Positions 36,808 to 51,196 of a stretch of 64,000 bases of DNA are shown piece after piece. The notes under the pieces were generated by a model that saw nothing but the letters and a program-made list of their open reading frames with translations, did not search any database and was not told where the DNA came from. The first letter of the stretch is position 1. Each line of letters opens with the position of its first letter. The DNA comes from Knoellia sinensis KCTC 19936 (GTDB taxonomy: Bacteria > Actinomycetota > Actinomycetes > Actinomycetales > Dermatophilaceae): contig NZ_AVPJ01000011.1 of assembly GCF_000768705.1 (NCBI RefSeq), forward strand, positions 1-64,000. The letters run 5' to 3'. Both the position numbers and the translations under genes were made by a program.

Positions 36808-36916
36808 TACCGAGCTCACCCAATTGGACGGTTGGGCACGCGGACCAATCGATCCGGTATGCCGTCGGCTCGCCGGGCGTGTGCCGAACTCACCCAATTG
36901 GACGGTTGGGCACGCG
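36808..36916. repeat. Two direct copies of a CCAATTGG-centred repeat
   Basis: Two near-identical copies (about 36808-36843 and 36884-36916) share ACTCACCCAATTGGACGG or its GCTC variant and the tail GTTGGGCACGCG. They are separated by a spacer with one GTATGCCGT (36857). Three more copies occur at 40162-40295, on the other side of the oxidase/PLP-enzyme block. Confidence 0.75.
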
Positions 36917-37548: not shown

Positions 37549-37564
37549 TAGGTCACTTGACCTG
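37549..37564. promoter_or_regulatory. Shared TetR-type operator, copy 1
   Basis: TAGGTCACTTGACCTG contains the palindrome AGGTCA-CT-TGACCT. It lies in the 78-base promoter between the divergent acetyltransferase and lactone oxidase genes. The identical 16 bases recur at 41022-41037 before the MFS-sulfatase operon. The TetR encoded between the two sites is the obvious candidate to bind both. Confidence 0.75.
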
Positions 37565-37592
37565 TTCGCTCCGTGAAGGAATCCTTGCCGCC

Positions 37593-38936
37593 ATGACGAC
37601 GGTGGCAACGAGGCCAGGCGAGGCACGCGACGGCTGGCGCAACTGGGCAGGCACCGAACGGGTCACGCCCCGTCGGGTGGTGACACCCCACTCGCCCGAG
37701 GAACTCTCCGACGCGATCCGCGCCGCCGTTCGGGACGGACTGCCCGTCAAGGCAGTCGGCTCGGGCCACTCGTTCACCGGGGCAGCAGTCGCACCCGGCG
37801 TGCAGGTCCGCCCGGAGGGGATGGCGGGGATCGTCGACGCCGACGTGGAGGCCGGGCTGGTCACCGTCGAGGCGGGCATGCCACTGCATCAACTCAACCC
37901 ACGCCTGGCCCAACTCGGCCTCGCGATGGAGATCCTCGGCGACATCGATCGGCAGACGATCGCCGGCGCGATCTCCACGGGCACGCACGGGAGCAGCCGA
38001 CTCTTCGGCAGCATCTCCACCCAGGTGCGGGCGCTGGAGATGGTGTTGGCCGACGGGTCGATCGTCACCTGCTCCGAGTCGGAGAACCCGGACCTCTTCG
38101 CCGCCGCCCGGATCTCCCTCGGCGCGCTCGGGGTCGTCACCAAGGTGACGCTCCAGTGCGTGCCGCTCTATGCGCTCGAAGCTGTCGACGCGAAGCTCCC
38201 ACTCGACGAGACGTTGGACTGGGTCGATGAACTCGTGGAGGCCAACGACCACTTCGAGTTCTTCTGGTTCCCGCACACGACGACGGCACTGACCCGCCGC
38301 TTCAAGCGGGTCCCCGGGGACACGCCACTGCGACCGAGATCGAGCGTGAGCCGTTGGCTGGACGACCGCGTCGTCACCAACATCGGCTACGACGCCCTGT
38401 TGCGGGTCGGCGCGCTTCTGCCTCGCACCGTCCCGGCCATCACCTGCCTGGTCACCGCTGCGGTGAGTGCGCGCGAGTTCACGGAGTTGGCGCCGAGCGT
38501 CTTTGCGTCGGATCGCGACGTCCGCTTCGTGGAGGGGGAGTATGCCGTCCCGCGGGCTGCGCTCCCCGACGTCCTTCGCGAATTGCGGAGTTGGGTCGAC
38601 ACCCACGACGAGCCGATCGCCTTCCCGTTCGAGGTCCGGTTCGTCAAGGCGGACGACATCTGGCTGTCGCCGGCGTATGAACGCGACGTCGCCTATGTCG
38701 CCTTCCACCAGTACCACCGGATGTCGCACGAGCGGTGGTTCCGGGTCTGTGAGGACGTGCTGGGCGCCGCAGGGGGGCGTCCGCACTGGGGCAAGATGCA
38801 CCGGCTGACCCACGTGGATTTCGCCGAGCGAGTGCCACGCTTTGGCGACTTCCTCGCCGTGCGCGAGGACGTGGATCCCCTCGGCGTCTTTGCGAATCCG
38901 TACCTCGATCGTGTCCTCGGGGAGGTCGGCCAGTGA
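37593..38936 (+). CDS. FAD-linked oxidase, D-arabinono-1,4-lactone oxidase-like
   Basis: A 447-residue flavoenzyme. The FAD-binding domain (about 25-200) contains VKAVGSGHSFTGAAV with His59, the site of covalent flavin attachment in aldonolactone oxidases, and DRQTIAGAISTGTHGSSRLFGSIS. The C-terminal ALO domain ends with GRPHWGKMHRL and DVDPLGVFANPYLDRVLG, both diagnostic. It oxidises a sugar lactone or polyol and passes electrons to oxygen or another acceptor. Its stop overlaps the GTG of the PLP-enzyme gene, a pairing seen repeatedly in actinobacteria. The shared operator upstream links it to the sulfatase operon. Confidence 0.9.
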   Translation: MTTVATRPGEARDGWRNWAGTERVTPRRVVTPHSPEELSDAIRAAVRDGLPVKAVGSGHSFTGAAVAPGVQVRPEGMAGIVDADVEAGLVTVEAGMPLHQLNPRLAQLGLAMEILGDIDRQTIAGAISTGTHGSSRLFGSISTQVRALEMVLADGSIVTCSESENPDLFAAARISLGALGVVTKVTLQCVPLYALEAVDAKLPLDETLDWVDELVEANDHFEFFWFPHTTTALTRRFKRVPGDTPLRPRSSVSRWLDDRVVTNIGYDALLRVGALLPRTVPAITCLVTAAVSAREFTELAPSVFASDRDVRFVEGEYAVPRAALPDVLRELRSWVDTHDEPIAFPFEVRFVKADDIWLSPAYERDVAYVAFHQYHRMSHERWFRVCEDVLGAAGGRPHWGKMHRLTHVDFAERVPRFGDFLAVREDVDPLGVFANPYLDRVLGEVGQ

Positions 38937-40153
38937 CCGTCATGGAAGCACGGGCGTTGCCGCTCGAGAGGGGTCGCTTCGAGGAGTTGGCCGCCGCGAC
39001 GGCTCACCTCGATGCCCCGTATGCCGTGGTCGACCTAGACGCGTTCGAGGCCAACGCCGCGGATCTGGAGCGACGTGCTGGTGGCAAGCGGATCCGCCTC
39101 GCGAGCAAGTCCGTGCGCTGCCGGTCGTTGATGCGCGACGTCCTGGGGCGCCCGGGCTGGCATGGGGTCCTGGCCTTCACGCTGCCCGAGGCGCTCTGGC
39201 TCGCCCGTGAGGTCGACGACGTGGTCGTCGGCTATCCGAGCGTGAACCGAGAAGCGCTGCGGGCGCTGGCTTCTGACGAGGATCTGGCAGCCCGGATCAC
39301 GCTCATGGTCGACGGCGTGGAGCAGCTCGACTTCATCGAGTCGGTCGTCGGCGGGGTCGGGCGAGGTCCGAAGGTGCGCGTGTGTCTCGACCTCGACGCC
39401 TCGCTCCGCCTCGCCTCCGGGCGAGTCCACCTCGGCCCGCGCCGGTCCCCGCTCCACACTGCCGACGACGCCCGCCGGATGGCCTTGGCCGTGCGTGGCC
39501 GCCCCCGGTTCCGACTGGTTGGCCTGATGTCCTACGAGGGTCAGATCGCCGGGCTGGGGGACGACGCTCCCGGGCTGCGACGGTTCGCGGTGCGAGCGGT
39601 GCAGGCCCTCTCCGAGCGCTCACTGCGGGAGCAACGAGGTGCCATGGTGCTGGCCGTGCGGGGGGTGGCAGACCTCGAGTTCGTCAACGGCGGTGGCACC
39701 GGGAGTCTCGAGTTCACCTCTTCCGACGCGTCGGTCACGGAACTCGCGGCCGGTTCGGGCCTGCTCGCGCCCGCGCTCTTCGACACCTACCGGCACTTCC
39801 AGCCCAGTCCAGCGTCATTCTTCGCGCTGCCCGTGGTTCGCCGTCCTTCGCCGGATCACGCCACGCTCCTGGGTGGCGGCTGGATCGCATCCGGGCCGAG
39901 CGGTGCCGACCGGCTGCCCACCCCCGTGTGGCCCGAGGGTCTGTCCCTGCTCGGAGCCGAAGGTGCTGGTGAGGTCCAGACACCCGTCACGGGGCCCGGC
40001 GTACGCGACCTCCGGGTCGGCGACCTCGTGTGGTTGCGGCATGCCAAGGCCGGCGAACTCTCCGAGCACGTCGACGCCCTCCATCTCGTGCGGGGCGACC
40101 TAGTCGTCGACACCGTCCCCACCTACCGCGGCGAGGCCCAAACCTTCCTCTGA
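38933..40153 (+). CDS. PLP-dependent alanine racemase-like enzyme (amino acid deaminase/aldolase type)
   Basis: A 406-residue fold-type III PLP enzyme related to D-threonine aldolase and D-serine dehydratase. The PLP lysine is Lys59 in IRLASKSVR, after DLDAFEANAADLERR. The beta-barrel motifs FRLVGLMSYEGQIAG and FVNGGGTGSLEFTSSD follow. In the C-terminal domain LRHAKAGELSEHVDALHLV corresponds to the metal site of D-serine dehydratase, but the usual cysteine is not seen. The substrate is unknown. It overlaps the oxidase gene by four bases, so the two are translated together and may act on related sugar or amino compounds. Confidence 0.85.
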   Translation: MTVMEARALPLERGRFEELAAATAHLDAPYAVVDLDAFEANAADLERRAGGKRIRLASKSVRCRSLMRDVLGRPGWHGVLAFTLPEALWLAREVDDVVVGYPSVNREALRALASDEDLAARITLMVDGVEQLDFIESVVGGVGRGPKVRVCLDLDASLRLASGRVHLGPRRSPLHTADDARRMALAVRGRPRFRLVGLMSYEGQIAGLGDDAPGLRRFAVRAVQALSERSLREQRGAMVLAVRGVADLEFVNGGGTGSLEFTSSDASVTELAAGSGLLAPALFDTYRHFQPSPASFFALPVVRRPSPDHATLLGGGWIASGPSGADRLPTPVWPEGLSLLGAEGAGEVQTPVTGPGVRDLRVGDLVWLRHAKAGELSEHVDALHLVRGDLVVDTVPTYRGEAQTFL

Positions 40154-40161
40154 GCGCCGCG

Positions 40162-40295
40162 TACCGAACTCACCCAATTGGACGGTTGCGTACCGAACTC
40201 ACCCAATTGGGTGAGTTCGGGACGGGACGTGAGCGGACGGCATACGTCCGGCTTGTTCAGGGTTTGTCCCCAACCGTCCAATTGGGTGAGTTCGG
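40162..40295. repeat. Three CCAATTGG-centred repeats forming a nested palindrome
   Basis: Copy 3 (40162-40188) and the inverted copy 5 (40271-40295) form a long stem of ACTCACCCAATTGGACGG-type sequence. Between them lies copy 4 (40193-40220), a perfect 28-base palindrome around CCAATTGG. ACGGCATAC at 40237 lies in the same loop. It sits after the PLP-enzyme gene and just before tetR, so it may end transcription. Confidence 0.75.
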
Positions 40296-40326
40296 GACAG
40301 TGCGCGGCGCGGGTAAAGTCGCGGCC

Positions 40327-40950
40327 ATGCCACGGATGCCGATCGCCGAGCGTCGGCAGCAACTCGTTGAGGCGGCCATCGCCGTCATGACCCGCGACGG
40401 CGTCCGCAAAGCCACGACCCGCGCCATCGCCAGCGAGGCCGGGACGTCCCTGAGCGTCTTCCACTACTGCTTCGACTCCAAGCAGGAGTTGCTCGAGTCC
40501 GTCGTCACGACGATCGTCGGCAAGACCGTGACGCTCGCCGAGGAATCTCTGGCTCAGGCCATGCCCTCCAACGGCGCCACCATGGACAAGAAGGAGCGGC
40601 TCGACGTCGTCCGCTTGGCCATGCACGCCTACTGGGACCACGTCACGGCCAACCCCGAAGAGCACCTGCTGACCTACGAAGTGACCCAGTTCTGCCTGCG
40701 TGACCCAGAGTTCGCGCACGTGGCGCAACGTCAGTACGAGCTCTACGCGCAGGCCTACGTCATGGTGTTCGAGAACGTGGGGCTCACGTCGACCTGGCCG
40801 GTGGCGACGGTCGCAAGACTGCTCGCCGTGACGTTCGACGGGCTCACCCTCGACTGGCTGGTGCGTCGCGACAGCGAGTCGTCCGTGGCCGTGCTCGACG
40901 CCGTCGCGCAGCAGCTCAACGCCGTGCTCGTGCCGGTCGCGTCCAGCTGA
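40327..40950 (+). CDS. TetR-family regulator of the sulfated-glycoside gene block
   Basis: A 207-residue repressor. The helix-turn-helix is at about residues 8-55: RRQQLVEAAIAVMTRDGVRK, ATTRAIASEAGTSLSVFHYC, FDSKQELL. The C-terminal domain resembles the BetI-like TetR group (YWDHVTANPEEHLLTYEVTQ, TFDGLTLDWLVRRD). It is encoded between two divergent or downstream gene groups that each carry the identical palindromic operator AGGTCACTTGACCT, and it is the only local regulator not otherwise paired. It is thus inferred to repress both, releasing them when the substrate or its product is present. Confidence 0.87.
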   Translation: MPRMPIAERRQQLVEAAIAVMTRDGVRKATTRAIASEAGTSLSVFHYCFDSKQELLESVVTTIVGKTVTLAEESLAQAMPSNGATMDKKERLDVVRLAMHAYWDHVTANPEEHLLTYEVTQFCLRDPEFAHVAQRQYELYAQAYVMVFENVGLTSTWPVATVARLLAVTFDGLTLDWLVRRDSESSVAVLDAVAQQLNAVLVPVASS

Positions 40951-41021
40951 CGGAACGTCGCAACCCGTCCCCGAGAACTCCTCGCCATGGCAGGGTCGCG
41001 AGTGTTAGCGTCACCCGCGAC

Positions 41022-41037
41022 TAGGTCACTTGACCTG
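41022..41037. promoter_or_regulatory. Shared TetR-type operator, copy 2
   Basis: TAGGTCACTTGACCTG, identical to the site at 37549-37564. It lies 30 bases before the GTG of the MFS transporter, where binding would block transcription of the MFS-sulfatase-FGE-GH1 genes. Confidence 0.75.
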
Positions 41038-41067
41038 AACGAGCAGCACAAGCAAAGGAGCTCACCG

Positions 41068-42327
41068 GTGAGCACCTCCGTGGCCCCCACGACCGAGCGC
41101 GCCCCCGTCACCACGGGCTGGATCGCGCGCTTCGGCCTGATGTATTTCGGCCAGCACATCTCGTGGGCCACCCCCGCCCAGATCCTCCTCGCCGTCCAGG
41201 TGCTCGCGATGTACCCCGACGACAAGGAGCGGATGCTCGCTTGGCTCATGGGCGTCGGTGGCCTCGCGGCGGTCATCGCCGGTCCGCTCGCCGGTCGCTT
41301 CTCCGATCGGACCCGCAGCTCCTTCGGACGTCGGCGTCCTTGGATCGTCGGCGGCACCGTGGTCGCTTCGGCCATGCTCGTGGTCGCCGGAATCACGGGC
41401 TCGTATGCCGTCCTCTTCGGTGCGTGGGTCGTCTTCCAGATCGCGCTCGCGACCTCTCAGACCAGCGTCCAGACGATCCCGCCGGACCGCGTGCCGCACC
41501 AGCAGTACGGTCTCATCTCCGGGGTCATGGGCCTCACCTACACCGCGGCAGTCGTCGTCGGCGCGGCCCTCGGCGCGCTGCTGCCGGTCCGCGGGGCCTA
41601 CCTCGCCACGGCCCTGTTCATGCTCCTCTTCCTCGTCCCCTTCGTGGCGACCTACCGCGAACCCGAAGGCGAGGCGGTCCCGAAGGTCGAGTCACGGCAT
41701 ACGGAATCGGGGGTGAAGCCGACCGGGCTGGGACGGGTCGGGTTCAACCTCCCGTCGTTCCGCGAAGCGCCCGACTTCTGGTGGGTCTTCATCGCCCGCC
41801 TGCTCGTGACGATGACCCAGGCGATCGCGCTGTTCTACCTGCTCTATTTCCTCCGCGACCGGGTCCAGCACCCCGACCCGGAGACCGGCGTCCTCATCCT
41901 GTCTGCGGTCTATGCGGTGTTCGTCATCCTCACCGCCGTGTGGTCGGGTCGGGCGAGTGACCGCAGCGGCAAGCGTCGGGTCTTCGTATCGCTGAGTTCC
42001 TTCGGGGTGGCCGTCGCCTGCCTCGTCATGGCATTCGCGACGTCGTTCACCGTCGTCATCGGCGCGGCCGCGCTGCTCGGCCTGAGCTGGGGCGTCTTCC
42101 AGGCGATCGACCAGGCCCTCATCAACCACGTCCTGCCGTCCGCCGAGGACCGAGCCGCCCACATCGGCATCGTCAACCTCGCCGTGCACATCCCCAACAC
42201 CGCCGCCCCCGCCATCGCCGCCGTGCTCGTCACCCAGGCCGGTGGCTATCCCGGCCTGTATGCCGTCGCCGCGGCTCTCACGACCATCGGCGGCATCGTG
42301 GTCTGGAAGGTCCGCAACGTTCCCTGA
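41068..42327 (+). CDS. MFS sugar transporter
   Basis: A 419-residue major facilitator transporter with 12 helices. The loop after helix 2 reads GRFSDRTRSSFGRRRPWIVGG, a form of the A motif typical of sucrose/glycoside (GPH-like) transporters with the extended RSxxGRRRPW. The matching loop in the second half is GRASDRSGKRRVFVSL. The GTG start follows AAGGAG by seven bases. It is first in an operon with sulfatase, FGE and GH1 genes and is preceded by the shared TetR operator, so it probably imports a sulfated glycoside intact by proton or sodium symport. The substrate is inferred. Confidence 0.87.
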   Translation: MSTSVAPTTERAPVTTGWIARFGLMYFGQHISWATPAQILLAVQVLAMYPDDKERMLAWLMGVGGLAAVIAGPLAGRFSDRTRSSFGRRRPWIVGGTVVASAMLVVAGITGSYAVLFGAWVVFQIALATSQTSVQTIPPDRVPHQQYGLISGVMGLTYTAAVVVGAALGALLPVRGAYLATALFMLLFLVPFVATYREPEGEAVPKVESRHTESGVKPTGLGRVGFNLPSFREAPDFWWVFIARLLVTMTQAIALFYLLYFLRDRVQHPDPETGVLILSAVYAVFVILTAVWSGRASDRSGKRRVFVSLSSFGVAVACLVMAFATSFTVVIGAAALLGLSWGVFQAIDQALINHVLPSAEDRAAHIGIVNLAVHIPNTAAPAIAAVLVTQAGGYPGLYAVAAALTTIGGIVVWKVRNVP

Positions 42328-42373
42328 CCGCCGTCCTCACTCGAGACGTCCGCACCACACGCAAGGAGAGACG

Positions 42374-44188
42374 ATGCGCGCCATCGTCGTCATGTACGAC
42401 ACGCTCAACCGCCGCTACCTGCCGCCCTACGGCGCGACCGACGTCCACGCCCCGAACTTCACCGAGTTGGCGCAGCGCGCGGTCACCTTCGACAACGCCT
42501 ACGGCGGGTCGATGCCCTGTATGCCGGCCCGTCGCGAGATGCACACCGGTCGCCACAACTTCCTCCACCGGGCGTGGGGTCCGCTCGAGCCGTTCGACGA
42601 CTCGGCGCCGGAGATGCTCAAGCAGGCCGGTGTCCACACGCACCTCGTCACGGATCACCAGCACTACTGGGGTGACGGTGGCGCGACCTATCACATGCGC
42701 TTCAACACCTTCGAGTTCGTGCGCGGGCAGGAGGGTGACGAGTGGAAGGGCGTGGTCGACGACCCCAAGGAGTGGGCCGACGAGCCGTGGCAGGAGGCCA
42801 CGACCAACCACGCGCTGCGCCGCCAGGACCGCATCAACCGCGAGTGGACCAACACGGAGGCGACCCACCCGCAGACGCAGGTCTTCGACCTCGGCCTCGA
42901 GTTCATCGAGCGCAACGCCGACGCCGACAACTGGCTCGTGCAGATCGAGACCTTCGACCCGCATGAGCCGTTCTTCGCGCCCGAGGACTTCCGGCGCCTC
43001 TACGGCGACCGGGGTGCGCAGCGCGACGGACCGGACCTCGACTGGCCCGACTACCGACCGGTGACGGAGTCGGAGGACGACGTCGAGCACGTCCGCACGC
43101 TCTATTCAGCGCTGCTGTCCATGTGCGACAAGAGCCTCGGCCGAGTCATCGAGGCGATGGACCGCCACGACATGTGGGACGACACGATGCTCATCGTCTG
43201 CACAGACCACGGCTTCCTCCTCGGCGAGCATGACTGGTGGGGCAAGAACACCCCGCCGTACTACAACGAGACGATCCACCTGCAGATGTTCGCGTGGGAT
43301 CCGCGCGATCGCGTTGCGGGCGAGCGGCGTTCGTCCCTGGTCCAGACCATCGACCTCGCCCCCACGTTGCTCGACTTCTTCGGCCTCGCCCCGACGCCCG
43401 ATATGGAGGGGCGGCCGCTACGCGAGGTCATCACGCGCGACGAGCCGCTGCGCACGGCTGGGCTGTTCGGGATCTTCGGTGGGCACGTCAACGTCACGGA
43501 CGGGCGCTGGGTCTACATGAGGGCGCCGGTCGACCCGGGCAACGACGGCCTTCAGGAGTTCACGCTCATGCCGACCCTCATGCGGGGTCGGATGCCGGTC
43601 TCGATGCTGCGTGAGGCCGAGTTGGTCGAGCCCTTCCGCTTCACCAAGGGCGTGCCGGTGCTGTCGCTTCCCGGTGTCACGTACTCGGATCCGCACGCCT
43701 TCGGCACCATGCTCTTCGACCTCCACGCCGACCCGTTGCAGGCGAACCCCGTCATCGACGACGAGACTGAACTCCGCCTCGCCACCCTCATGCGTGACCT
43801 CATGGTCGCCAACGACGCTCCGACGTCGCAGTTCGTGCGGCTCGGCCTGCCCGAGAAGGATGCCCTCGACGAGAGCCACCTCCTGTGCCGGGCGCACGAG
43901 GGCCAGGTGCAGGGCGCGCGCATGGCGTTCCTCAAGCCGGAGGACTTCCCGACCGGCGGCGTCCCCGTCACGACGAGCATCGGTGCGCTGCGGTCGAACC
44001 CGGCCACGCTCGACGTCCTGCGAAGGCACCTCGGACCGCTCGCCGACATGGACGTGCCCGAGGAAGCGCTCGCGATGAACCTGCTCGATCTCGCCGTGGT
44101 CGCTGTCGGCGTCATCAGCCCGGCCCAGCTGCGCGCCATCGCCGCCGACCTCGCCACGCTTCCGGAGCCGGTGACCGCCGATGGCTGA
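42374..44188 (+). CDS. FGly-dependent sulfatase, cytoplasmic
   Basis: A 604-residue sulfatase of the alkaline-phosphatase superfamily. The modification motif is Cys49-Met-Pro-Ala-Arg53 in GSMPCMPARREMHTGRH; Cys49 would become the catalytic formylglycine. Metal and substrate residues are seen in VVMYDTLNRR, FDPHEPFFAPEDF and IVCTDHGFLLGEHDWWGK. No signal peptide or lipobox is present, so it acts in the cytoplasm, unlike most sulfatases of polysaccharide degraders. The modifying enzyme is encoded next to it with an eight-base overlap. AAGGAGAG precedes the ATG. The substrate is probably a small sulfated sugar or glycoside brought in by the MFS protein. Confidence 0.93.
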   Translation: MRAIVVMYDTLNRRYLPPYGATDVHAPNFTELAQRAVTFDNAYGGSMPCMPARREMHTGRHNFLHRAWGPLEPFDDSAPEMLKQAGVHTHLVTDHQHYWGDGGATYHMRFNTFEFVRGQEGDEWKGVVDDPKEWADEPWQEATTNHALRRQDRINREWTNTEATHPQTQVFDLGLEFIERNADADNWLVQIETFDPHEPFFAPEDFRRLYGDRGAQRDGPDLDWPDYRPVTESEDDVEHVRTLYSALLSMCDKSLGRVIEAMDRHDMWDDTMLIVCTDHGFLLGEHDWWGKNTPPYYNETIHLQMFAWDPRDRVAGERRSSLVQTIDLAPTLLDFFGLAPTPDMEGRPLREVITRDEPLRTAGLFGIFGGHVNVTDGRWVYMRAPVDPGNDGLQEFTLMPTLMRGRMPVSMLREAELVEPFRFTKGVPVLSLPGVTYSDPHAFGTMLFDLHADPLQANPVIDDETELRLATLMRDLMVANDAPTSQFVRLGLPEKDALDESHLLCRAHEGQVQGARMAFLKPEDFPTGGVPVTTSIGALRSNPATLDVLRRHLGPLADMDVPEEALAMNLLDLAVVAVGVISPAQLRAIAADLATLPEPVTADG

Positions 44189-45098
44189 CGTCGAGACGAA
44201 GGCCTGCTGCACGCCAGCGCGCAACTCCGGACTTCAGCTCAAGGCGCCACAACGACTGCGGCACAGTGCTGTTCACGATCTGGCCGACACCATGCGTACG
44301 CGCGCCTTGAGTATCGAGGCACAGACGTTCCTCATGGGCACCGATGACGGGATCGGCCTGCCTGAGGACGCCGAGGGACCCCAGCGCCCAGTCGCCGTGA
44401 GTGCCTTCGGCATTGACCCGTATGCCGTCCGCACCAGTGAGTTCGCCGCCTTCGTCTCCGCGACCGGTCACGTGACGGACGCCGAACGGTTCGGATGGAG
44501 CCACGTCTTCGCCGGGCTGGTGCCCGAATCGATCGCGGCCGCGAGTCCACGTCCGGCGAGTGCGCCGTGGTGGTGCGCCGTCGATGGGGCCTCGTGGCGT
44601 CAGCCCGAGGGGCCGGGCAGCGACCTCGATGGACGAGCCGACCACCCGGTCACACACGTCTCCCACCGCGACGCGACAGAGTTCGCGCAGTGGGTTGGGG
44701 CACGGCTGCCCACCGAGGCGGAGTGGGAGTGCGCGGCTCGAGGGGGACTCGTGGGTGCCCGCTACCCGTGGGGCGACGACTTCGAGGATGGGGGCGCCGA
44801 ACGCCTCAACATCTTCCGCGGCGACTTCCCCGAGAGCCCGGCAGTGAGCCGGACCGAGGGCTGGGTCGGCACGATGCCCGTCGACGGCTTCGCGCCCAAC
44901 GGTTTCGGGCTCCACCACGTCAGCGGCAACGTCTGGGAGTGGACCGCGGACAACTGGCGAGGCGGCAAGTCCCTGCGCGGTGGCTCGTACCTCTGCCACG
45001 ACTCCTACTGCAACCGCTACCGGGTGGCCGCCCACACCGCCAACGAACCCGACGCGAGCAGCGGCCACTGCGGCTTCCGCCTCGCCTGGACCGTGTGA
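44181..45098 (+). CDS. Formylglycine-generating enzyme (sulfatase-modifying factor)
   Basis: A 305-residue FGE/SUMF1-type enzyme, a copper-dependent oxidase that turns the sulfatase cysteine into formylglycine. The catalytic pair Cys272 and Cys277 sits in GSYLCHDSYCNRYRVAAHTA, the arrangement of proven bacterial FGEs. Other hallmarks are FLMGTDD at the core start, ARLPTEAEWECAARGG, YPWGDDF, GLHHVSGNVWEWTADNW and CGFRLAW. The N-terminal 45 residues, including CC at 9-10, precede the core; an internal ATG at 44292 could be the real start. It overlaps the sulfatase gene by eight bases, giving coupled production of enzyme and activator. Confidence 0.94.
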   Translation: MADVETKACCTPARNSGLQLKAPQRLRHSAVHDLADTMRTRALSIEAQTFLMGTDDGIGLPEDAEGPQRPVAVSAFGIDPYAVRTSEFAAFVSATGHVTDAERFGWSHVFAGLVPESIAAASPRPASAPWWCAVDGASWRQPEGPGSDLDGRADHPVTHVSHRDATEFAQWVGARLPTEAEWECAARGGLVGARYPWGDDFEDGGAERLNIFRGDFPESPAVSRTEGWVGTMPVDGFAPNGFGLHHVSGNVWEWTADNWRGGKSLRGGSYLCHDSYCNRYRVAAHTANEPDASSGHCGFRLAWTV

Positions 45099-45129
45099 CG
45101 AACGTGAAAACCGGAGAAAGTGACTGACC

Positions 45130-46416
45130 TTGCCTGACGACCTGCTCTTCAGCACCCGCGAACTGCTCATCGGGACGGCCACCGCCTCCCTCCAGATCGA
45201 GGGCGGCGACCGCAACAACAACTGGTACGACTGGGCCTCGGTCCCCGGCAACATCAAGGACGGCTCGACGCCGTTGCGCGCCACCGACCACTGGAATCGC
45301 TGGCGCGAGGACACCGCCCTCATGGCCGACCTCGGCCTGCAGGTCTATCGCATGTCGCTCGAGTGGTCGCGCATCGAACCGCGCCCGGGGGAGTTCGATC
45401 GGGAGGCGATCGACCGCTATCGGGAGGAGATCTCCGCGATCCGGGCGGCCGGCATACAACCGCTGGTGTCTCTCCACCACTTCTCGCACCCGTCCTGGTT
45501 CCAGGGGCTGGGCGGCTGGACGAGCTCCGCCGCTCCGGACATCTTCCTGAGGTTCGTCGACGTCGTCCCCGCCTTGTCGGACCTCGTCACCGAGTGGGCG
45601 ACGATCAACGAACCCAACGTGTATGCCGTCCAGGCCCACCTTTTCGGTGAGACGCCGCCGGGGAACCGCTCGTGGTCCGCTGTCCGCAGCACGTTGCGGC
45701 ACATGGCGATCGCGCACTGCCGCGCCTACCGCCGCATCCACGAGTTGCAGTCCGACGCGAAGGTCGGATTCGCCCACCACGCACGGGTTTTCGCGCCCCT
45801 CAACCCGCGCAACCCGTTGCACCGAGCCCTGTCTCTGTTCAACAGCGCGATGTTCCAGGACCAGCTTGCTGACGCCATGCTCGGTGGACGCTTCCCGAAG
45901 GTGCTCGGCGCGAAGCCCGACGACATCACGCCGGGGAAGTACTACGACTACCTCGGCATCAACTACTACTCGCGCACCGCGGTCAAGGGCATCGAGGACG
46001 GCACCTTCCCCGAGTCGCCGATCAACAACCTCGGGTGGGAGATCTATCCCGAGGGGCTCGTCCAGGTCGCGCGCGAGCTGCACTCGCGCTATCCGGCGCC
46101 GATCTGGGTCACCGAGAACGGCACCGCCGACGCTGCCGACGCCTTCCGGTCCCGCTACATCCACGACCACCTCAAGGCCATCGTCGAGAGCGGGCTGCCG
46201 TTCGAGCGCTACTACCACTGGTGCTTCGTCGACAACTGGGAGTGGGCCGAGGGTGAGGTGCCGCGCTTCGGCATCGTCGAGAACAACTACGAGACCCAGC
46301 AGCGCACCGTCCGCGACAGTGGCTGGTTCCTGTCGCAGGTCATCGCCGACGGTGGCGTGAGCCAGTCGACCTTCGACAAGTACGTCGCAGACCAGTCGTA
46401 CCCACTCAACTCCTGA
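45130..46416 (+). CDS. Glycoside hydrolase family 1 enzyme
   Basis: A 428-residue GH1 beta-glycosidase, a TIM-barrel retaining enzyme. The acid/base Glu161 lies in WATINEPNVYAV, the nucleophile Glu329 in IWVTENGTAD, and the aglycone-side WCFVDNWEWAEG near the end. Sequence such as ATASLQIEGGDRNNNWYDW at the start fits GH1. There is no signal peptide. The TTG start at 45130 lies 16 bases after GGAG, an uncommon start codon, but no better one exists in frame. As last gene of the MFS-sulfatase-FGE operon it probably hydrolyses the glycoside once the sulfate is removed. Confidence 0.9.
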   Translation: MPDDLLFSTRELLIGTATASLQIEGGDRNNNWYDWASVPGNIKDGSTPLRATDHWNRWREDTALMADLGLQVYRMSLEWSRIEPRPGEFDREAIDRYREEISAIRAAGIQPLVSLHHFSHPSWFQGLGGWTSSAAPDIFLRFVDVVPALSDLVTEWATINEPNVYAVQAHLFGETPPGNRSWSAVRSTLRHMAIAHCRAYRRIHELQSDAKVGFAHHARVFAPLNPRNPLHRALSLFNSAMFQDQLADAMLGGRFPKVLGAKPDDITPGKYYDYLGINYYSRTAVKGIEDGTFPESPINNLGWEIYPEGLVQVARELHSRYPAPIWVTENGTADAADAFRSRYIHDHLKAIVESGLPFERYYHWCFVDNWEWAEGEVPRFGIVENNYETQQRTVRDSGWFLSQVIADGGVSQSTFDKYVADQSYPLNS

Positions 46417-46437
46417 ACCCGGGACTGGTGACCGTGC

Positions 46438-46529
46438 CGACGGACATGCAGTAGTCGTCGCGCCGTGCGCCAGCCGTGCTCAGGGGGACGCATGGCCAGC
46501 GAGGTGGGTTGACCACTGCATGTCCGCCG
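46438..46529. terminator. Long-armed inverted repeat between convergent genes
   Basis: Imperfect arms around GGACATGCAGT (left 46438-46456) and ACTGCATGTCC (right 46511-46529) are separated by about 54 bases of GC-rich sequence. It lies between the GH1 gene and the convergent reductase gene, so it probably serves both as a terminator. It belongs to none of the other repeat families here. Confidence 0.5.
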
Positions 46530-46540
46530 ACCCGCCTGGC

Positions 46541-47509
46541 TCACAGCGTCACGACGACCTTGCCGAGGGCGTTGCCGGCGCCGACGTGGTCGATGGCGCG
46601 CGGCACGTCCTCGAAGGGCACGGTCAGGTCGATGACGGGTCGCACCTTCGACTCCTCGACGATGGCGTCGAGTTCGGCAAGGTCACTCCCCAACTCCTTG
46701 GACATGTGCATGACGAGCCGCTGCTTCACGAAAGGGCTCAGCAGCGCCGCAGCGATCGAGCGGTGCAGCCCGCCCGTCAGCCCACCGGTCTCCGTGCCGA
46801 CGCAGACCAGCGTGCCGCGTTCGGTCAGAACGCTGCGGAGTTCGCGCCGTGGTCGGTTGCTCGCGATGTCGATGACGTCGTCGTATTGGACGCCCTCTGA
46901 GTCCAGGGCGTCACTCGTCCGGTCGATGACGTGCTTGGCACCCAACTGGTGCATGAGCGCGATGCCGGCCGGACGGCATACGGCAGTGACAACGGCACCC
47001 GCCGCGATGGCCAGCTGAACGGCCAGGTGGCCCACGCCCCCGGAAGCTCCCACGACGAGAACTCGCTGTCCCGCAACGACTTTCGCGCCTCGAACCGCCT
47101 GGTATGCCGTGAGTCCCGAGATCGGGAGCGCCGCCGCTTCCGCGGTCGTCAGGTTCGCAGGCGGACGGGCGATCCGCTTCACCGAAGCGGTGACGAGCTC
47201 GGCGAGCGAGCCGTTCGTCGTGCCATGCACCGCGTCGCCGACCGCCCACCCGACGGCATCGGAACCGACGGCTTCGACGACGCCAGCGAAGTCGCGCCCC
47301 GGCGTGCTGAAGCCGGCGCGGGGCCCGCGGAAGCCGAGTGCTGGTCGGGCGATGAGCGGCGTTCCCGTCATGACGTGCCAGGTGCCCCGGTCGACTGCGG
47401 CGGCCTTGACGCGCACGACGACCTCGCCGGCGCCGGGGGTGGGCTCGGTCGCCTCGGTGAGGCGGAGTTGCTCGGTGCCGCCGTAGTGCTTCTGCGTCCA
47501 GGTGCGCAT
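46541..47509 (-). CDS. NADPH:quinone reductase-like MDR oxidoreductase
   Basis: A 322-residue medium-chain reductase without zinc ligands. The catalytic half opens MRTWTQKHYGGTEQLRL and includes STPGRDFAGVVEAVGSDAVG. The Rossmann half has VLVVGASGGVGHLAVQLAIAAGA and KHVIDRTSDAL. The ending VPFEDVPRAIDHVGAGNALGKVVV is typical of this subgroup, often annotated as NAD(P)-dependent alcohol dehydrogenase. It reduces quinones or enones in the cytoplasm. It is divergent from a TetR regulator, and two perfect operators lie in the 102-base gap, so it is almost certainly repressed by that protein. Confidence 0.9.
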   Translation of the reverse strand: MRTWTQKHYGGTEQLRLTEATEPTPGAGEVVVRVKAAAVDRGTWHVMTGTPLIARPALGFRGPRAGFSTPGRDFAGVVEAVGSDAVGWAVGDAVHGTTNGSLAELVTASVKRIARPPANLTTAEAAALPISGLTAYQAVRGAKVVAGQRVLVVGASGGVGHLAVQLAIAAGAVVTAVCRPAGIALMHQLGAKHVIDRTSDALDSEGVQYDDVIDIASNRPRRELRSVLTERGTLVCVGTETGGLTGGLHRSIAAALLSPFVKQRLVMHMSKELGSDLAELDAIVEESKVRPVIDLTVPFEDVPRAIDHVGAGNALGKVVVTL

Positions 47510-50504: not shown

Positions 50505-51196
50505 GTCCCTCGACCAGTGCCCGCGAGGAGATCCTGGCCCGGGTCCGCTCAGCCACAGCCGACATCACCTCCGAACCTCGACTTATTGCCCGTTCGGCCA
50601 GTGGCTCGCTGCCCTCGCAACTGGCCGAACGGGCAATAAGTCGGGCGGTGGGTGCGGAGGAGGGGACGCTGGAGCTGTTTGCGGAGAACGTCGCGGACTA
50701 TCGCGCGGCCGTCGTGCGGGTCCCGGCCGCCGAGGTCGGTGGTGCCGTCGTCGACGCCCTGCGATCGGCCGGCGTGCAATCCGTCGTCACACCGACCGGA
50801 CTCGACCAGAGCTGGGCCGAGGCGGTGGGTGCGGCGTTCGACGTCGTCACCGAAGCTGCGGCCACGTCGGCACAGCAGCTCGACCAGGTCGACGCCGTCG
50901 TCACCGGATCCGCCATCGGCATCGCCACGACCGGCACGATCGTCCTCGACCACCAGCCCGACCAGGGGCGGCGGGAGCTCACGCTCGTCCCCGACACCCA
51001 CGTGTGCGTCATCCGCGACGATCAGGTGGTGCACGACGTTCCCGAGGCAGTGACGCGACTGCGGACCGCCGCCGGGCAGCAGCGTCCCCTCACGTGGGTC
51101 AGCGGACCGAGTGCCACGAGCGACATCGAGCTGCAGCGGGTCGAGGGCGTCCACGGCCCCCGCACCCTCGTCGTCATCATCGCGGGGACGCCCTGA
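50501..51196 (+). CDS. lutC: Lactate utilization protein LutC
   Basis: A 231-residue LUD-domain protein, third subunit of the lactate oxidation complex. The conserved core runs from VADYRAAVVRVPAAEVG through DAVVTGSAIGIATTGTIVLD, RRELTLVPDTHVCVIRDDQV to TWVSGPSATSDIELQRVEGVHGP. The stretch encoding about residues 27-48 is not typical of LutC: there the DNA is a perfect palindrome (next entry) read in frame as RLIARSASGS then LPSQLAERAIS. The open frame is kept, so the insertion appears tolerated in a surface segment. Its stop codon overlaps the ATG of the PPSR gene. Confidence 0.92.
   Translation: MSPSTSAREEILARVRSATADITSEPRLIARSASGSLPSQLAERAISRAVGAEEGTLELFAENVADYRAAVVRVPAAEVGGAVVDALRSAGVQSVVTPTGLDQSWAEAVGAAFDVVTEAAATSAQQLDQVDAVVTGSAIGIATTGTIVLDHQPDQGRRELTLVPDTHVCVIRDDQVVHDVPEAVTRLRTAAGQQRPLTWVSGPSATSDIELQRVEGVHGPRTLVVIIAGTP
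50579..50643. repeat. Perfect inverted repeat inside lutC
   Basis: Arms of 24 bases (50579-50602 and 50620-50643) are exact complements, separated by 17 bases. Each arm contains TTATTGCCCGTTCGGCCAGT or its complement, including an AT-rich stretch out of keeping with the 70% GC gene. It looks like a palindromic element inserted in frame within a coding region. Confidence 0.85.

Follow-up and report, generated by a model that had tools for sequence, protein, structure and literature searches.

The window analysed here is a 64,000-nucleotide stretch of the genome of Knoellia sinensis KCTC 19936, in which four consecutive and co-directional open reading frames occupy positions 41068-46416 of the forward strand. 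They encode an MFS transporter (41068..42327, with a GTG start codon; PF07690 MFS_1, 2e-36), which is the predicted importer of a sulfated glycoside, a formylglycine (FGly)-dependent sulfatase (42374..44188; PF00884, 1.2e-33), a formylglycine-generating enzyme (FGE; 44181..45098; PF03781, 6.8e-62) and a GH1 beta-glycosidase (45130..46416, with a TTG start codon; PF00232 Glyco_hydro_1, 1.4e-69). All four Pfam matches exceed the curated cut-offs. The sulfatase and FGE reading frames overlap by 8 bases (44181-44188), and the gaps before the sulfatase and before the GH1 gene are 46 bp and 31 bp, respectively. Hydropathy analysis of the sulfatase, FGE and GH1 proteins detected neither a signal peptide nor an N-terminal hydrophobic segment in any of the three. 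A sequence-only reading of this DNA had described the four genes, their overlap, the CMPAR motif of the sulfatase, the paired cysteines of the FGE and the lack of signal peptides in the enzymes, and on all of these points it proved correct. Scans with Rfam (at gathering level) and for tRNA genes gave zero matches across the window, and a promoter scan of positions 40900-46700 found no sigma-70 match.

A TetR-family regulator gene (40327..40950, forward strand; PF00440, 3.7e-10) ends 117 bp before the MFS gene, and is itself preceded on the same strand by a gene for a FAD-linked sugar 1,4-lactone oxidase-like protein (ALO, 37593..38936; PF04030, 2e-75, and TIGR01679 above its cut-off) and one for a PLP-type protein with an alanine-racemase N-terminal fold (38933..40153; PF01168, 9.6e-7), the two overlapping by 4 bp. 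An identical palindromic 14-mer, AGGTCACTTGACCT, has just two occurrences in the entire genome, with the TetR gene between them: at 37550..37563, 30 bp ahead of the ATG start of the lactone-oxidase gene, and at 41023..41036, 32 bp ahead of the GTG start of the MFS gene. Because the same predicted operator precedes both the ALO and the MFS genes, the ALO/PLP pair probably belongs to the same response as the four downstream genes, and the gene set is probably wider than the four, taking in the TetR gene and the lactone-oxidase pair as well. The predicted regulon would then span positions 37550-46416. The sequence-only reading had mentioned neither the TetR gene, nor the second palindrome, nor the lactone oxidase. 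The ALO and PLP-type genes are paired in 7 of 8 congeners, and relatives of the TetR protein adjoin three homologous sulfatase loci (L008, L013 and L015) and the ALO pair of genome G007.

The identity of the sulfatase is supported by a PF00884 match of 117 bits against a cut-off of 25 and by the maturation motif CxPxR, found as C49-M-P-A-R53, of which C49, P51 and R53 are present in 30 of 30 aligned relatives; C49 is the residue predicted to become FGly. The second calcium site (D-[NHQ]-G) and the active-site His211 of the S1 family are likewise represented in all 30, by D278-H279-G280 and H197. Other features set this protein family apart, including a motif of its own, TDHQHYW. At calcium site 1, D9 is invariant (30/30) and is followed by Ser in 17 and Thr in 13 of the 30, where the nearest solved relatives have Gln; the Asp-Asp pair usual at this site is not defining, as Asp14 is retained in only 76% of S1 members. 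The second S1 signature, G-Y-x-T-x3-G-K with its Lys113, is missing from the window sulfatase, and is usual rather than defining, occurring in 94% of S1 members according to the available text of the SulfAtlas paper (PMC5066984). The Lys of the usual sulfate site is replaced by Asp within T/S93-D94-H95 in all 30 relatives, a position mapped by hand onto the published S1 pattern.

These substitutions of the Lys and of the second Asp of the calcium site raise the question of whether the CMPAR protein might in vivo hydrolyse phosphonates or phosphodiesters, as other members of its superfamily do, instead of acting as a sulfatase. The predicted structure (pLDDT 85.7, from an alignment in which 30 of 32 rows were used, L118 and L119 being left out) leaves some room for this interpretation, since phosphonate monoester hydrolases reach a Z of ~32, tied with several sulfatases; they account by title for 5 of the 50 entries listed in the VIA structure comparison (Z 29-34), the others being sulfatases or sulfamidase. 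Phosphonate monoester hydrolases and the SpAS1/SpAS2 enzymes (2w8s, 4uph, 4upi, 4upl) are also among the nearest solved relatives in sequence (E 1e-24 to 8e-33), but are only 20-24% identical to the window protein and differ from its family, which has TDHQHYW. We nevertheless regard a phosphonate or phosphodiester substrate as very improbable, in view of the glycosidase genes that recur near the CMPAR protein, the second sulfatases that adjoin it in other loci and include close relatives of 6-O-sulfatases, and the precedent of 87 sequences, among 4058 of the S1 family, that carry Asp where the Lys usually stands (PMC5066984, available text). The S1 entries listed by Foldseek and VIA run to dozens, at 13-24% identity, and since no single one among them stands out, no specificity can be read from the structure.

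The cellular location of the sulfatase can be judged from where its gene begins. Residue 1 is encoded by ATG, GTG or TTG in 78 of 80 homologous loci, an SD-like stretch lies upstream of the start in 70 of the 80, and the first core strand of the predicted structure comprises residues 2-10. Because the gene thus starts at the first core strand in 78 of the 80 loci, the subfamily is, by this measure, cytoplasmic. Secretion of the sulfatase was considered and rejected, since gene starts and hydropathy leave no export signal.

The FGE has a PF03781 match of 210 bits and aligns to the solved FGE 5nxl with an E of 1.8e-83. Its LCHDSYC segment corresponds residue for residue to the C272/C277-type pair in 5nxl and 6s07. 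Pfam profiles matched across the genome identified a single PF00884 sulfatase and a single PF03781 FGE-family gene, and because these two lone genes adjoin and overlap, the proposal that the FGE is dedicated to activation of this sulfatase is supported.

The GH1 protein has the features of a retaining beta-glycosidase. Its catalytic residues, the acid/base E161 (in NEP) and the nucleophile E329 (in TENG), are conserved in 10 of 10 aligned sequences, as are Q22, H117, N160, Y280, W364, E371 and W372; these include residues that presumably bind an unmodified sugar through its O4 and O6. The predicted structure (pLDDT 86.7) retrieved general beta-glucosidases and beta-glycosidases among the matches listed. 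The 6-phospho-beta-glycosidases of GH1 have generally lost the glycone-binding Glu of NWEW. Such an activity was rejected for the window enzyme, which keeps E371-W372 of this motif and scores far below the cut-offs of the NCBIfam 6-phospho models.

To what extent the four functions belong together can be judged from the 80 GTDB loci homologous to the sulfatase that were used for linkage counts and the 85 other loci mapped for gene order, in which genes were labelled by clustering and by Pfam scans of representatives. In these counts, which are non-independent because the loci are related by descent, an importer lies within seven genes of the sulfatase in 63 of 80 loci (MFS genes being credited from tblastn in L010, L013, L015 and L023, where the ORF picker chose overlapping frames), and 17 loci, some of them bounded by contig ends, have no nearby importer of the kinds counted. 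A maturase is close by in 45 of the 80 (FGE in 41, anSME in 4) and a glycosidase in 38 (GH1 in 8, GH3 in 31). The FGE and GH1 genes are concentrated near the sulfatase, with 39 FGE genes at 0-5 kb versus 3 at 5-10 kb and 7 GH1 genes versus 1; the corresponding figures for GH3 are 25 and 13. The partners vary widely in kind. Serratia has a PTS with the sulfatase and anSME; in Enterobacter a PTS accompanies the sulfatase and the anSME lies further off; in Rhizobium there are a sugar ABC importer, the sulfatase and FGE; a Streptomyces plasmid carries TetR, FGE, PadR, MFS, GH1 and sulfatase genes; and a Bifidobacterium locus (L056), whose sulfatase is 51% identical to that of the window, has MFS, DUF202 and anSME genes. 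The proposal that the compound is taken up intact and then desulfated inside the cell is well supported in its first two steps, because the sulfatase starts at its core strand and importers of unrelated kinds adjoin it, while its last step, hydrolysis by the GH1 enzyme, is supported indirectly.

The exact order MFS-sulfatase-FGE-GH1, for which a search had been suggested, was found in none of the 85 other mapped loci; in L005 and L006 the contig stops after MFS-sulfatase-FGE, so that a GH1 gene may lie beyond its end, and in L008 the same three genes are followed by GH1 at a distance of 4.7 kb, behind genes of the opposite strand. GH1 recurs with the sulfatase in several gene orders, and is present in 6 of the 8 nearest full-flank loci in which MFS directly precedes the sulfatase. 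The chance expectation is ~0.017 per locus (37 GH1 genes in 48.1 Mb, with fragmented matches merged), so the linkage of MFS, sulfatase and GH1 exceeds chance. In the nearest orthologous locus, G064, the MFS (74% identical), sulfatase (81-82%) and FGE (68%) are kept, and the accompanying GH1 is only 30% identical to that of the window and belongs to another clade, so that the GH1 step has been replaced there and not lost. That GH1 recurs, and that the MFS-sulfatase-FGE core is served by either of two unrelated lineages of it, indirectly supports action of the GH1 enzyme on the desulfated product. Relatives of the window GH1 at 50-60% identity, however, occur in loci without a sulfatase match: in all nine of the loci fetched with flanks (9 of the 10 non-own matches) there was no sulfatase or FGE match.

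The latter loci lend some weight to a different explanation, in which the sulfatase serves as a sulfur scavenger, releasing sulfate from its small aryl, alkyl or sugar esters, and the GH1 and MFS genes constitute a neighbouring glycoside module that shares its transcript by chance. In three of these nine loci (L144, L148 and L149) a GH1 gene adjoins an MFS gene of the window clade. Furthermore, among six independent genomes chosen without the peptide-pattern step, which were all the remaining matches of that search, none has a GH1 or GH3 match near the sulfatase (one being represented by a 5.6-kb contig); FGE is near it in three, anSME in a fourth, and importers in three of the six. There is also a precedent in the acesulfame sulfatase of Shinella, an FGly sulfatase which, like the one proposed here, has a small imported molecule as its substrate, in that case a non-sugar compound; it differs in its setting of amidase, LysR and TauE/SafE genes, with no glycosidase mentioned in the available text (PMC11500405). 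On balance we consider sulfur scavenging rather unlikely; against it stand the recurrence of GH1 in those six of eight loci and in several orders, the unrelated GH1 that serves the same core in G064, the GH3, GH2, GH78 and GH120 genes of other homologous loci, and the presence of a local TetR gene.

A further question concerns the position of the sulfate on the glycoside. The sulfate might be on the aglycone, as in a sulfated phenol, flavonoid or glucosinolate, and the sulfatase and GH1 enzyme would then work at opposite ends of the molecule and in either order. Such an arrangement would be compatible with the residues for an unmodified glycone that the GH1 enzyme keeps. Plant myrosinases are not known to keep the acid/base Glu, unlike the window enzyme, and its retention here (NEP) speaks against this placement, as do the second sulfatases of several partner loci, whose nearest solved relatives are the GlcNAc-6-sulfatase BT4656 and galactose-6-sulfatases, which point to sulfates on the sugar. 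Further evidence comes from the GH3 genes that stand beside the sulfatase subfamily in some Streptomyces-type loci (those of L014, L016 and part of L017 being 70-73% identical to the one in L019), for which the best solved relative is 7PJJ, the BcpE2 enzyme of Streptomyces scabiei. BcpE2 is a promiscuous beta-glucosidase that scavenges glucose from plant heterosides and accepts glucosides of very varied aglycones, which favours an aglycone sulfate; it differs from the window glycosidase in being of family GH3, and no sulfatase appears in the available description (PMC9426481). Taken together, the observations make a sulfate on the aglycone possible but unlikely.

The reading that we consider reasonably likely is that of a TetR-controlled catabolic unit through which a small sulfated beta-glycoside would be imported whole, desulfated and hydrolysed in the cytoplasm. 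Because relatives of BcpE2 are present in some related loci, a sulfated plant-type glucoside is the favoured candidate for the substrate. The MFS protein would import the intact, negatively charged compound; the FGE, judged by the motifs of both proteins, would act in the cytoplasm to turn residue C49 of the sulfatase into formylglycine; the sulfatase would take off the sulfate ester; and the GH1 enzyme would cleave the unsulfated beta-glycoside to sugar and aglycone. The TetR protein would act as repressor by binding at the two identical predicted operators, before the MFS gene and before the ALO/PLP pair. Some of these partnerships may be partly accidental. A close orthologue of the sulfatase was found in only 1 of 9 genomes of the genus (its own) and in 2 of 186 of the family (its own included), which makes the unit either recent or patchy in its distribution, and the predicted regulon is not conserved in G064, because its TetR gene belongs to another cluster and no such palindrome precedes its operon.

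Cytoplasmic sulfatases are known from other settings. Choline sulfatase BetC is cytoplasmic, as is the sulfatase of the Bifidobacterium breve clusters, reportedly the ats1/ats2 glycosulfatase clusters described by Egan in 2016; the substrate of ats2 is reportedly GlcNAc-6-sulfate, and to our knowledge the ats1/ats2 clusters have no GH1 gene and a regulator of a family other than TetR. We likewise know of no FGE-GH1 operon in choline catabolism. With these two examples, the earlier statement that secretion of the sulfatase is the usual case in known systems was too strong. BetC (6fny, 6g5z) resembles the window protein as an FGly sulfatase with Asp-His at the second calcium-site pair and a structural Z of 31.4, but the two are only 24% identical. 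The published B. breve clusters, as described in the available text, are compact assemblies of transporter, regulator, sulfatase and maturase (PMC9239261) and in this are like the window locus. They differ from it in having anSME where the window has FGE, and for this difference in maturase ats2 was rejected as the same system.

More tentatively, the comparisons hint at a type of cytoplasmic route for the use of small sulfated glycosides that would be built around a single S1 subfamily with an altered sulfate site (TDHQHYW, and Asp for Lys), present in records of five phyla, and in which the importer (MFS, GPH, two ABC kinds or PTS), the maturase (FGE or anSME) and the beta-glycosidase (two or three GH1 lineages, or GH3) would be exchanged; in the window, the TetR operator would tie in an aldonolactone oxidase for the released sugar or lactone. 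We think such a generalization possible, if doubtful. In open PMC literature, which leaves most subscription literature outside its scope, neither the operon nor the sulfatase subfamily appeared in a title or abstract among the matches listed.

Most of what is known about how bacteria degrade sulfated glycosides concerns marine and gut species and the enzymes that they secrete. If the present interpretation is true, a cytoplasmic version distributed across bacteria of soil and plants would point to small sulfated natural products as a class of food for these organisms, and the locus would provide a sulfatase whose specificity is new and which comes with an activator and a glycosidase of its own. 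Because this genome has a lone sulfatase and a lone FGE, deleting single genes would put the question to a direct test.

The four genes that a sequence-only reading had described as consecutive do lie side by side on one strand of this genome (3.99 Mb in 61 contigs, of which the window comprises bases 1-64000 of contig 3), and the products all pass their Pfam cut-offs: an MFS transporter (41068-42327), a sulfatase (42374-44188), a formylglycine-generating enzyme (FGE; 44181-45098) and a GH1 glycosidase (45130-46416). The 8-bp overlap of the sulfatase and FGE genes is present, and the cysteine pair of the FGE aligns with those of solved FGEs, which match its residues 42 to 302. Both catalytic Glu residues and the checked glycone-site residues of the GH1 are kept in 10 of 10 aligned sequences. 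The window sulfatase and FGE are the single matches to PF00884 and PF03781 genome-wide, and there are two GH1 matches. The earlier view of these genes as a cytoplasmic pathway for a sulfated glycoside was largely right but incomplete.

Hydropathy shows no signal peptide in the sulfatase, the FGE or the GH1, as had been stated. For the sulfatase, gene starts and a structural model make the evidence on location stronger than hydropathy alone. Its residue 1 aligns with a start codon in 78 of 80 homologous loci (ATG 58, GTG 14, TTG 6), a Shine-Dalgarno-like stretch lies upstream in 70 of the 80, and in the model (mean pLDDT 85.7) residues 2-10 already form the first core strand, so that an export signal could not be accommodated.

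The subfamily was sampled by a peptide-pattern scan of GTDB genomes. By record title, the best 80 of 171 relatives come from Actinomycetota, Rhizobiales and their relatives, Paenibacillus and other Bacillota, Chloroflexi and one Planctomycetota bin, and the window sulfatase shares 48-81% identity with the 31 members that were aligned. Close members are rare: they occur in 7 of 396 genomes of the phylum at E 1e-100 (own genome counted), in 2 of 186 of the family (this genome and G064, which holds the nearest orthologue, 82%) and in 1 of 9 of the genus, the window's own. No close solved structure was found (best profile match, E 8e-33), and none of the 50 structural matches listed is close (15-24% identity, Z 29-34). 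The 30 sulfatases compared all keep the CxPxR motif, His197 and Asp278-His279. They also all have Asp94 at the Lys113 site of Pseudomonas AtsA, as placed by manual mapping to the published pattern, and Ser or Thr at the Asp14 site. Passages of the SulfAtlas paper give Lys113 in 94% of sequences and Asp in 87 of 4058 (PMC5066984).

An importer of one of the kinds counted lies within seven genes of the sulfatase in 63 of the 80 loci (overlapping kinds: oligopeptide-type ABC 27, sugar-type ABC 24, MFS 18, GPH 5). A maturase lies within ~10 kb in 45 (FGE 41; the anaerobic-type anSME 4), and a glycosidase is near in 38 (GH1 8, GH3 31); the 61 loci with full flanks include 36 with a maturase and 34 with GH1 or GH3. 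Linkage to the sulfatase declines with distance, from 39 genes at 0-5 kb to 3 at 5-10 kb for FGE, from 7 to 1 for GH1 and from 25 to 13 for GH3. Against this linkage counts an even draw across the phylum, whose six other matches had GH1 or GH3 near the sulfatase in 0 of 6; the same six had FGE in three, anSME in one more and an importer in three. GH2-, GH78- and GH120-type glycosidases each occur in single loci. Among plasmid records, a Rhizobium one joins sugar ABC genes, sulfatase and FGE, and one of Streptomyces anulatus groups TetR, FGE, PadR, MFS, GH1 and sulfatase. PTS genes adjoin the sulfatase in a Serratia record, with anSME, and in an Enterobacter record, with anSME ~8.6 kb away. At L117 and L120, the loci from Enterobacter and Serratia records, the PTS-adjoining sulfatase is of the same subfamily (50-55%), DUF202 proteins and anSME are nearby, and the PTS probably imports a sulfated sugar.

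A suggested search for the same four-gene order elsewhere came back empty: MFS-sulfatase-FGE-GH1 occurs in 0 of 85 other mapped loci, of which L005 and L006 are uninformative on GH1 because their MFS-sulfatase-FGE run ends with the contig. Among full-flank loci whose MFS gene immediately precedes the sulfatase gene, six of the nearest eight (L007, L008, L009, L010, L011, L013, L015 and L020) carry GH1, which is missing from L009 and L020, against a background in eight searched genomes of ~0.77 per Mb, or 0.017 per locus (37 genes in 48.1 Mb, fragmented matches merged). The GH1s of these six loci and of G064 make up one clade. That of the window belongs to another, with ~30% identity to the six and 50-60% to its relatives at L143-L150; no sulfatase or FGE was matched beside window-clade GH1s in nine fetched loci, three of which (L144, L148 and L149) have the GH1 adjoining an MFS of the window MFS clade. 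In G064 a TetR gene is followed by GH1-MFS-sulfatase-FGE, with identities to the window of 74% for MFS, 81-82% for sulfatase, 68% for FGE and 30% for GH1. The two genomes share an MFS-sulfatase-FGE core and differ in their GH1s, and two unrelated GH1s therefore serve one core, which is the best evidence for the importance of the predicted beta-glycosidase step.

Hints to the substrate come from other partners of the subfamily. In Streptomyces-type loci, the GH3 of L019 has 7PJJ as by far its best solved relative (1068 bits), and it shares 70-73% identity with the GH3s of L014, L016 and part of L017. 7PJJ is BcpE2, a Streptomyces scabiei beta-glucosidase that freed glucose from all tested plant heteroside types (PMC9426481). 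BcpE2-like beta-glucosidases linked to the subfamily lie at L019:18029-20506 and also in L014, L016 and L017; rhizobial loci have GH3s of other types, 26-42% identical to that of L019. The main sulfatase has a second one next to it, from a mixed cluster, in 37 of the 80 loci, which suggests multi-sulfated substrates. Twelve loci, mostly rhizobial (L022, L024, L025, L029-L031, L033-L035, L038, L043 and L058), have one at least 77% identical to that at L025:11805-13349, which like the main sulfatase starts beside its first core strand and is closest to the GlcNAc-6-sulfatase BT4656 (E 1e-126) and galactose-6-sulfatases. Because of the BcpE2-like GH3 partners and 6-O-sulfatase-like second sulfatases, a small sulfated beta-glycoside, whatever the position of its sulfate, is the favoured substrate class.

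The operon probably also has a regulatory partner. A 6-2-6 palindrome, AGGTCACTTGACCT, predicted to be an operator, is present in two copies: that at 41023-41036 precedes the MFS start by 32 bp, and that at 37550-37563 precedes, by 30 bp, the start codon (ATG) of a FAD-linked sugar lactone oxidase gene (37593-38936, paired with a PLP-type protein, 38933-40153). A TetR gene (40327-40950) sits between the two copies. The whole genome holds the exact 14-mer only at these two sites, and AGGTCA-NN-TGACCT at one further (G000:C33:268859-268872, centre GA); with one mismatch allowed, 2 matches were found versus a mean of 0.04 in window shuffles. TetR relatives (36-44%) adjoin the sulfatase in L008, L013 and L015, and the same lactone-oxidase pair in the congener G007, where no sulfatase operon was found in the 20 kb fetched. 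The palindrome there, between the pair, is TGGTCAATCGTCCAAGTCTATTGACTTGG; L008 has TGGTCAATCGTCCAAGACGATTGACCA upstream of MFS-sulfatase-FGE, L015 has TGGGTCACCTGACCCA upstream of its TetR, and that of L013 differs (ACTGGGACGATCGTCCCAGT). No GGTCA-TGACC site was found in the 350 bp before MFS in the seven mapped MFS-type loci that lack this TetR; palindromes with arms of at least 10 number 168 in 1.59 Mb (80 loci). Against a regulon counts G064, with no such palindrome before its operon and a TetR of a different cluster. Within this genome, the paired palindrome ties the sulfatase operon to the lactone-oxidase pair, and the predicted operators probably place both in one regulon. A paralogous pair (46-54% identity) lies on contig 12.

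Other repeats occur in the region. A perfect palindrome, GCTCACCGGTGAGC (41060-41073), overlaps the MFS start codon. The repeat CCGAACTCACCCAATTGG, at 36812-36901 and 40164-40295, has 100 exact genomic copies (52 + 48), often in tandem at spacings of ~29 or 63-75 bp. The congener G004 has 39 copies, and neither the 7 further congeners nor the reversed control gave any; the region 40193-40220 of the repeat is a perfect 28-bp palindrome just upstream of TetR. Near 50550-50650, frames on both strands give peptides that resemble each other (YCPFGQ ... GRTGNKS) and point to an inverted repeat.

The likely function of the four genes is the use of a sulfated glycoside, which would be taken up, then desulfated and then hydrolysed. 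A transporter with a cytoplasmic sulfatase and its maturase is an already known kind of system, of which this one is a novel version.
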